From contig JAPOWH010000017.1 of the NCBI GenBank assembly GCA_026707735.1, forward strand, positions 62,001 to 126,000: 64,000 bases of DNA, given 5' to 3'. Position 1 is the stretch's first letter. Each line of letters begins with the position of its first letter. This DNA comes from Gammaproteobacteria bacterium. GTDB lineage: Bacteria > Pseudomonadota > Gammaproteobacteria > Pseudomonadales > Azotimanducaceae. Made by a program: the position numbers and the translations under genes. The notes below the pieces were generated by a model. That model was not told where the DNA came from and ran no database searches. It saw only the letters and a list, made by a program, of their open reading frames with translations. Of the stretch, positions 26,363 through 26,909 are shown piece after piece.

Positions 26363-26690
26363 TGGTGCCCGAGGCCGGAGTCGAACCGGCACGGAGTATT
26401 CTCCAAGGGATTTTCTTACCACTACGACTTTCGGCGCCGCTGCTACTACAACGTTCGTGGTCTGGACTTTCTCTTCACCTTGATTGGCTCTCAGTCGCGA
26501 GATTTTTCAAGGGGGAGCCGTAAAGTCTCTACACTTTCGACCTCGACTTCGAGATCGCTTAGCTCGGGATTGCCACACCTGCACGAAACGAGGTTTCCCC
26601 GAATTTGACTCCATTCACGGTGGACGTCGCCGTCCACGTGCTCAATTTGACGCTCAAGTCCCTTGCGTCTACCAATTTCGCCACTCGGGC
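26363..26690 (-). tRNA. tRNA-Leu (UAA) interrupted by a group I intron
   Basis: Split tRNA gene on the minus strand. The 5' exon (26690-26656, 35 nt) ends in GGGACTT and the 3' exon (26414-26363, 52 nt with CCA) starts AAAATCCC. Joined, they give an 87-nt tRNA: acceptor GCCCGAG/CTCGGGC, D-arm with AATTGGTAGAC, anticodon stem AAGGGA/TCCCTT around CTTAAAA (anticodon UAA), a long class II variable arm, T-loop TTCGACT and discriminator A. The intron lies after the first anticodon base, the same site as in cyanobacterial and plastid tRNA-Leu(UAA). It is divergent from the second tRNA-Leu. Confidence 0.95.
26415..26655 (-). ncRNA. Group I self-splicing intron in tRNA-Leu(UAA)
   Basis: 241-nt intron without an open reading frame. 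The catalytic core elements are readable in order on the minus strand: P (AAATTGAGC, about 26648-26640), the segment TTCGGGGAAACCTCG, Q (AATCCCGAGC, about 26571-26562), R (GTGTAGAGACTTTACGGC, about 26534-26517) and S (AAGAGAAAGTCCA, about 26475-26463). R and S can pair as P7 (GACTTT/AAAGTC), and CCTTGA/TCAAGG gives P8. The 5' exon ends in T and the intron ends in G, as required. Motif wording resembles the IC3-type introns of cyanobacterial trnL. I did not resolve P1. Confidence 0.93.
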
Positions 26691-26824
26691 AACAGTTTCA
26701 AACGATTTTACTTGCCATATAGACTTGAAGTACGCAGGGATGTTCAATCGCATCGAATGTCTCTGTCAGCTTGCAAACAGCTCGGAACGAGTTGGCCAGC
26801 GTACGCTCTAAAATTAGCTGCGTT

Positions 26825-26909
26825 GCTCAGGTGTTGGAACTGGCAGACAAGCAGGATTTAGGTTCCTGTGCCTTCGGGCGTGAGGGTTCGACTCCCTCCC
26901 TGGGCACCA
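26825..26909 (+). tRNA. tRNA-Leu (UAG)
   Basis: Class II tRNA with acceptor GCTCAGG/CCTGGGC (two G-T wobbles), D-arm GGAACTGGCAGAC, anticodon loop TTTAGGT (UAG) between GGA and TCC, variable-arm hairpin TGCCTTCGGGCG, T-loop TTCGACT and encoded CCA. It has no intron. It is divergent from the intron-bearing tRNA-Leu(UAA) 134 bases away. Confidence 0.95.

Follow-up and report, generated by a model that had tools for sequence, protein, structure and literature searches.

The window, by which we mean the whole 64,000-nt stretch of DNA that was analysed, contains a tRNA-Leu(UAA) gene on the minus strand, from 26690 to 26363, that is interrupted by a 241-nt insert (Table 1). The insert lies after the first anticodon base, between U34 and A35. 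A sequence-only reading had proposed a gene split in this way in a gammaproteobacterium, with T as the last base of the 5' exon and G as that of the intron; its coordinates proved right, both terminal bases can be read directly in the window, and the gammaproteobacterial host is supported. It had also called for tRNA-scanning of the spliced exons, and ARAGORN identifies the joined 87-nt product as tRNA-Leu(taa) with a complete cloverleaf. On the raw window, ARAGORN called only tRNA-Cys, tRNA-Leu(UAG), and tRNA-Gly, and no tRNA at 26363-26690. As run here, it misses the window's tRNA-Leu(UAA), leaving a probably ribozyme-dependent tRNA invisible to a standard tRNA finder. PMC8450103 reports fMet and Ile2 tRNAs that carry group I introns and remarks that tRNAscan-SE is not designed to detect such introns. 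The divergent tRNA-Leu(UAG) gene that adjoins the split gene has the same arrangement in 9 of the 17 other members of the genus within stretches of ~1 kb; because these stretches are so short, the neighbour is undecided in the remaining members.

Table 1 Features of the interrupted tRNA-Leu(UAA) gene and its surroundings (window coordinates; pairing and covariation values refer to the alignment of 35 introns)
Feature	Coordinates	Strand	Remarks
5' exon, tRNA-Leu(UAA)	26656..26690	-	35 nt; ends ...GGGACTT (U33, U34)
Group I intron	26415..26655	-	241 nt; starts with G 26655 and ends with omega G 26415
3' exon, tRNA-Leu(UAA)	26363..26414	-	52 nt including encoded CCA; AAAATCCC...CCA
tRNA-Leu(UAG)	26825..26909	+	Divergent neighbour
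Internal guide TTGAG	26641..26645	-	GAG 26643-26641 pairs with 5' exon CTT 26658-26656 (P1, U.G at splice site); pairing assigned by hand
P10	26645-26644 with 26414-26413	-	Guide TT with first AA of 3' exon; pairing assigned by hand
P2 hairpin	26616..26640	-	7/9 pairs changed on both sides
P3	26612-26607 with 26519-26514 (region 26514..26612)	-	100% paired; 3/6 pairs changed on both sides
P4	26602-26597 with 26569-26564	-	100% paired, nearly invariant
P6a hairpin	26538..26557	-	8 pairs; 8/8 changed on both sides
P7	26527-26522 with 26470-26465 (region 26465..26527)	-	Guanosine-binding helix, pseudoknotted with P3
P8	26512-26507 with 26483-26478	-	Between P7 strands; 67.6% paired; 4/6 pairs changed on both sides
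P9	26461-26457 with 26422-26418 (region 26418..26461)	-	95.4% of cells paired
P9a	26453-26449 with 26442-26438	-	85.1% of cells paired
P9b with GAAA loop	within 26418..26461	-	98.9% of cells paired; one C.U mismatch in window

Within a 461-base stretch, the insert matches the Rfam group I model RF00028 at 40.9 bits (E 3.9e-9, model positions 1-253), and the whole-genome search recovers it with E 6.7e-9. In this covariance-model check, which the sequence-only reading had proposed, the match is significant, but its score is below the curated gathering score of 50, a stricter bar, and a default scan of the whole window at the gathering threshold therefore lists no match. The minimum free energy is only mildly unusual (z -2.05), with 6 of 100 shuffles folding equally well. 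The decisive evidence for a group I fold is covariation. We aligned the window intron with those of the 17 other members of the genus and with another 17 gammaproteobacterial introns of less than 300 nt that were picked by hand (n = 35), and wrote a P1-P10 structure based partly on the RF00028 alignment and partly on inspection by eye. Across its 68 pairs, 88.3% of 2342 cells are paired, versus 76.7% in shuffled alignments (0/500), and pairing falls to 32-46% when the structure is slid by shifting the 3' partners. Changes on both sides of a pair occur in 317 cells versus 112 when shuffled, such double changes are seen in 34 pairs, and no shuffle among the 500 reached any of the five covariation measures. 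Two biases bear on these values: the window itself supplied the structure, and the search patterns preset the 5' exon end as well as, in most rows from outside the genus, the sequence of the P4 5' strand. The covarying helices (P2, P6a, P9a, and P9b) are unaffected by this fixing of letters. Chance resemblance to a group I intron is thus rejected, since the covariation lies beyond all 500 shuffles, and the proposed identity as a group I intron stands on this and the RF00028 match.

The alignment displays the conserved P3-P9 core with its P7-P3 pseudoknot, in which P3, P4, P6, and five pairs of P7 are formed in 35 of 35 introns and P3 encloses P4, P5, P6, and P6a. The P7 pairing GACUUU/AAAGUC that had been read from the window is present there and its first five pairs are invariant throughout, but the sixth, U-A, occurs in just two of the 35. 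P5 is 64% paired, with one position unpaired in every intron. P1 and P10 are 100% paired, and the guide takes the form TTG[AG]G near the intron start in 132 of the 134 trnL introns that we extracted. The U.G pair at the 5' splice site is found in 35/35, with the exon T preset by the search patterns, and the intron-final G was an extraction requirement, so that its presence in 134/134 is no independent count.

The host appears to have no alternative to this gene. The 5' exon is found at 100% identity at a single place in its own genome (26656..26690), and a search of the draft for a second tRNA-Leu(UAA) found none, with both exons at 100% only at this locus and a next-best match, at 74%, to Leu(CAA). 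A tRNA search of the genome gave 39 matches, two of them below the cut-off; the other leucine tRNAs found were UAG, GAG, CAA, and CAG. In 18 long predicted ORFs of the window, UUA accounts for 31 of 10,104 codons. Under ordinary wobble rules only tRNA-Leu(UAA) reads UUA, and splicing is therefore probably essential to the host, although an intronless copy may lie in a gap, as the draft is 95.8% complete. It would seem, then, that a whole genus relies on a ribozyme for one of its essential tRNAs. If the intron were degenerate and its tRNA gene dead, the RF00028 score below gathering and the single P9b mismatch might be expected. However, the exons are intact, including the CCA end, and give a cloverleaf; the helices are maintained by covariation among relatives; and no other gene was found for this tRNA. 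Such decay is scarcely credible, and we reject it.

As had been claimed, no homing endonuclease is found in the window intron, the longest open frame of which has 63 codons; mobile, homing introns of this group are marked by an encoded endonuclease, which the window intron lacks. Compared in all six reading frames with the HNH proteins of relatives (described below), the stretch gave nothing better than E 0.10, with no HNH remnant seen, and a search of the intron's own genome, run without a positive control, found no HNH gene. A TTG-started frame of 125 aa on the plus strand (26484-26861), antisense to the intron, extends from it into the neighbouring tRNA gene; no Pfam family matches it, and with the six-frame result in view it was set aside as a chance frame.

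All 18 genomes of the genus that were examined carry the trnL(UAA) intron, at lengths of 212-250 nt. A strict intronless pattern was matched by none of the 18 and by 35 of 97 relatives, those matching neither pattern being counted as undecided; RF00028 matches were obtained in 36 of the 97, the window's genome included. The intron pattern is present in at least 8 of 390 genomes of the order and at least 10 of 398 of a Pseudomonadota sample, the window's genome counted in both, and these are lower bounds because the pattern misses a known case (G007). Scanning of named genomes with a 5'-exon-plus-intron pattern yielded at least 118 stretches, and a script placed the 3' exon in 99. Among these 99 matches listed, the titles name 43 alphaproteobacteria, 38 gammaproteobacteria (four of the window's genus), 4 Proteobacteria, 9 Bacteroidota, 2 Acidobacteria, and UASB270, with 2 unlabelled. 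The pattern required TCGGGGAAACC and is biased towards introns of the gamma and alpha types, so that nothing follows from the lack of cyanobacterial titles among the matches listed. Several of the 134 extracted introns are the same record from two collections. Dropped from the analysis were 22 trnL candidate places (21 loci) at which the script could not place the 3' exon, five intron cores without cutting motifs (two Leu, three Ile), and seven loci whose group I matches were of other kinds and could not be read as tRNA-Ile. The trnL(UAA) site is thus occupied in many alpha- and gammaproteobacteria and in some Bacteroidota and Acidobacteria. The view that such introns are exceptional in proteobacteria is not supported, and the window's intron is a further example of a widespread, already published kind, of which gammaproteobacterial cases (Thiomargarita and BOGUAY) are in print.

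Other group I introns occur in these genomes. The window's genome has a second one, in tRNA-Ile(CAU) (L001, G000:C12:52840-53110; 67.8 bits), and an intron in this gene is present in 17 of 18 genus members. In three genus members, group I introns of ~650 nt (L056, L057, and L058, in G017, G010, and G001) lie in what by eye is 23S rRNA-like sequence and carry an ORF that, also by eye, is LAGLIDADG-like; on these grounds they were rejected as HNH-bearing trnL introns. At L030 in G073 (1468-1821), a group I intron seems by eye to split tRNA-Leu(CAA) at another position of the anticodon loop (about 32/33).

Phylogenetic trees were built with FastTree from 148 distinct intron cores, and again from 149 with a provisional Anabaena intron sequence, using 189-201 columns and local SH-like supports. 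In the 149-core tree the window intron lies in a 54-tip clade (support 0.914) that comprises all 18 genus members, 35 of the 37 other gammaproteobacterial tips, and one intron titled only Proteobacteria (L183). Introns of Gamma- and Alphaproteobacteria form largely separate clades in both trees. The two outlying gammaproteobacterial introns (L051 and L170) sit among alphaproteobacterial tips, and two Acidobacteria fall among Sphingomonadales tips in the 148-core tree, with weak support; these placements suggest transfers between lineages. The genus introns are not monophyletic in the 148-core tree (weak supports), and more than one gain is therefore possible. Within the genus, the median pairwise identity is 0.93 for exons and 0.62 for introns.

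The sequence-only reading had considered that the intron might have come by horizontal transfer from a cyanobacterium. The window intron occupies what we take to be the exact site of cyanobacterial and plastid trnL introns. Its core identity to the Anabaena intron, a single provisional sequence, is 0.55, above the median of 0.47 (range 0.40-0.53) to 27 tRNA-Ile introns from the same family of bacteria. In the 149-core tree, this Anabaena sequence falls basal to the trnL tips and separate from the tRNA-Ile introns. The host gene is also shared with the cyanobacterial and plastid introns described in PMC4033280. However, identity to other gammaproteobacterial trnL introns is far higher (median 0.75 in the genus, 0.71 in other Gammaproteobacteria); the values are 0.65 for phages and 0.64 for both Alphaproteobacteria and Bacteroidota. 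In addition, 10 of 18 genus genomes, the window's included, share the tRNA-Leu(UAG) neighbour, and the placement within the gammaproteobacterial clade and the presence in every genus genome speak against such a transfer. A recent cyanobacterial origin is very improbable on this evidence, and we reject it. Viral contigs searched with a pattern for cyanobacterial trnL introns gave no match. The sole match of a second core pattern was a cyanobacterial-type group I core on an IMG/VR contig (L238, 3916-4208), which adjoins long protein frames and has no tRNA exon that could be seen by eye.

Among the 134 trnL introns, 17 exceed 600 nt, or 14 after removal of doubly fetched records, and 12 of these 14 contain an open HNH ORF of ~154 aa in the P6a loop, antisense to the intron. 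All 12 are gammaproteobacterial introns of 684-739 nt (L112, L117-L119, L128, L131, L139, L142, L151, L167, L207, and L221), the copy at L117/L173 being from Porticoccaceae, and the ORFs of L128 and L167 are without ATG at the usual start. Two further introns are decayed versions of the HNH-bearing form: L225 has a broken antisense HNH ORF, and L183 (475 nt) keeps a shortened HNH frame. The long intron of UASB270 (L223) has its ORF in sense orientation. Pfam HNH_3 matches 13 of 14 aligned proteins (the 12, L223, and one from phage L248) and Pfam HNH matches seven; a comparison with solved structures by sequence gave no match. In the titles and abstract openings listed by our searches of open-licence literature, we found no report of an HNH gene in trnL(UAA) introns.

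Alleles with and without the intron occur within genera. In g61, the intronless locus L250 and the HNH-bearing L254 have exons 100% identical (46- and 56-nt matches) and one flank 72% identical over 1.09 kb, and a second HNH-bearing genome (L258) has a flank at 71% over 1.01 kb with exons at 100% and 87%. Plus and minus alleles at matching loci are also present in g45, which has the HNH ORF (one flank 74% over 1.9 kb), and in g7, which has none (one flank 72% over 1.7 kb); the comparison in g38, another genus with HNH, yields only short matches. Together with the HNH ORFs, these alleles fit a homing cycle.

Relatives of the HNH proteins were found by tblastn in 235 phage records, 55 of them with at least 80% coverage. 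The best phage match is LR756511.1 (L248), a 595-kb uncultured phage whose own trnL(UAA) contains the HNH ORF in sense (~1325-2120 of the locus), 51% identical to a gammaproteobacterial antisense protein. Its intron has a group I-like core by eye and is not listed by RF00028 at the gathering threshold. The trnL(UAA)-type intron pattern is present in nine IMG/VR contigs (L103-L111), with the 3' exon placed in seven. One of these, L110, has three group I matches in a single tRNA cluster. A trnL(UAA)-type group I intron was also seen by eye in the Lak-C1 phage (L249). PHROGs matched 6 of 10 proteins tried from five of these phage contigs. The window's tRNA query matches 1,260 plasmid records, many from Escherichia, Klebsiella, and Salmonella, and two plasmids were read. 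The conjugative plasmid pCTX-M3 of Citrobacter freundii (L259) has, by eye, a tRNA-Leu(UAA)-like gene at 314-612; the group I intron in it is small (36.8 bits, E 3.1e-7), and an AAA ATPase gene lies nearby. Conjugative plasmid CP094621.1 of the alphaproteobacterium Bradyrhizobium (L260) has a trnL(UAA) gene at 327-617, again by eye, with a group I intron of 45 bits (E 1.1e-9).

The proteobacterial trnL introns could also be explained without mobility, by vertical inheritance from ancient times and massive loss, and the largely separate gamma and alpha clades are in keeping with this. We regard this as unlikely. The distribution is sporadic, even allowing for a pattern that undercounts in the Pseudomonadota sample, L051, L170, and (with weak support) the two Acidobacteria are placed across lineage boundaries, copies lie on phage contigs and plasmids, and HNH ORFs and plus/minus alleles occur within genera.

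We favour, with a probability of about 0.9, a predicted functional group I intron in the sole tRNA-Leu(UAA) gene found, belonging to a gammaproteobacterial lineage that has a long HNH form and probably homes, with the endonuclease-free form fixed in the window's genus. The pre-tRNA would be transcribed whole, intron included, and the guide UUGAG would pair with the 5' exon end CUU to form P1, which has a U.G pair at the splice site. P7 would bind the guanosine that attacks after U34, and the freed 5' exon, aligned with the 3' exon by P10, would then attack after the last intron base, G, joining the exons into a tRNA that reads UUA. Elsewhere in the lineage, the long form with its antisense HNH ORF in P6a probably spreads by homing into intronless alleles, while in the window's genus the endonuclease-free form would be largely inherited with its locus. 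Judging from these relatives, the window's lineage may have lost its HNH ORF. Its intron is best read as a fixed, endonuclease-free stage of this trnL(UAA) intron family, some relatives of which, in other bacteria and in phages, keep a DNA-cutting gene that could spread introns.

The window intron alone is ordinary for its kind, and the interest lies in the mobile family around it. A broader proposition, for which we consider the case evenly balanced, is that bacterial tRNA-Leu(UAA) introns are not mainly a cyanobacterial heirloom and instead form a single mobile family that moves between phyla. Copies armed with HNH (antisense in Gammaproteobacteria; sense in the huge phage and UASB270) would home into intronless trnL(UAA) genes, phages and conjugative plasmids would ferry the gene together with its intron between lineages, and the window's genus would be among the lineages in which an endonuclease-free copy has become fixed. 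The relatives recast the textbook vertical inheritance of cyanobacterial and plastid trnL introns as a testable question of mobility, which now has a candidate endonuclease, natural plus/minus alleles at matching loci, and carriers among phages and plasmids.

Cyanobacterial and plastid tRNA-Leu(UAA) introns are small, are inserted after U34, and belong to subgroup IC3, and their guide wording is presumably the same as in the window. They have the same host gene as the window intron, whose P4 and P9 wording differ from those of the provisional Anabaena sequence and which, unlike them, lies in a gammaproteobacterial clade whose long members bear HNH ORFs. The introns of tRNA-Ile(CAU), which are of the Azoarcus type, and of tRNA-Arg(CCU) are likewise inserted in the anticodon loop, but at a different site; those of tRNA-Ile, the only ones of the two that were placed in the tree, are separate from the trnL tips. 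Bacterial tRNA introns are described in PMC4033280 from cyanobacteria and few alpha- and beta-proteobacteria, with group I introns in tRNA-Leu(UAA) given for cyanobacteria and plastids, and group I introns in archaea are the subject of PMC6125680. Published counterparts in the same gene and class of bacteria are the putative tRNA-Leu-TAA introns of Candidatus Thiomargarita nelsonii and BOGUAY (MacGregor 2013a, as cited in PMC4853749). PMC4853749 describes the BOGUAY gene as interrupted by a putative group I intron, with a similar gene in Thiomargarita Bud S10, and its account of these tRNA introns leaves their secondary structure and type undetermined. For phages, the introns known by 2014 were all in protein genes according to PMC3984707, and tRNA introns have since been described in Lak phages (PMC6784885). 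The window copy, with its plain 8-bp P6a hairpin and no HNH ORF, differs from the HNH-bearing introns of Gammaproteobacteria and of phage LR756511.1, which hold the ORF in the P6a loop and share with the window intron the same site and the same core.
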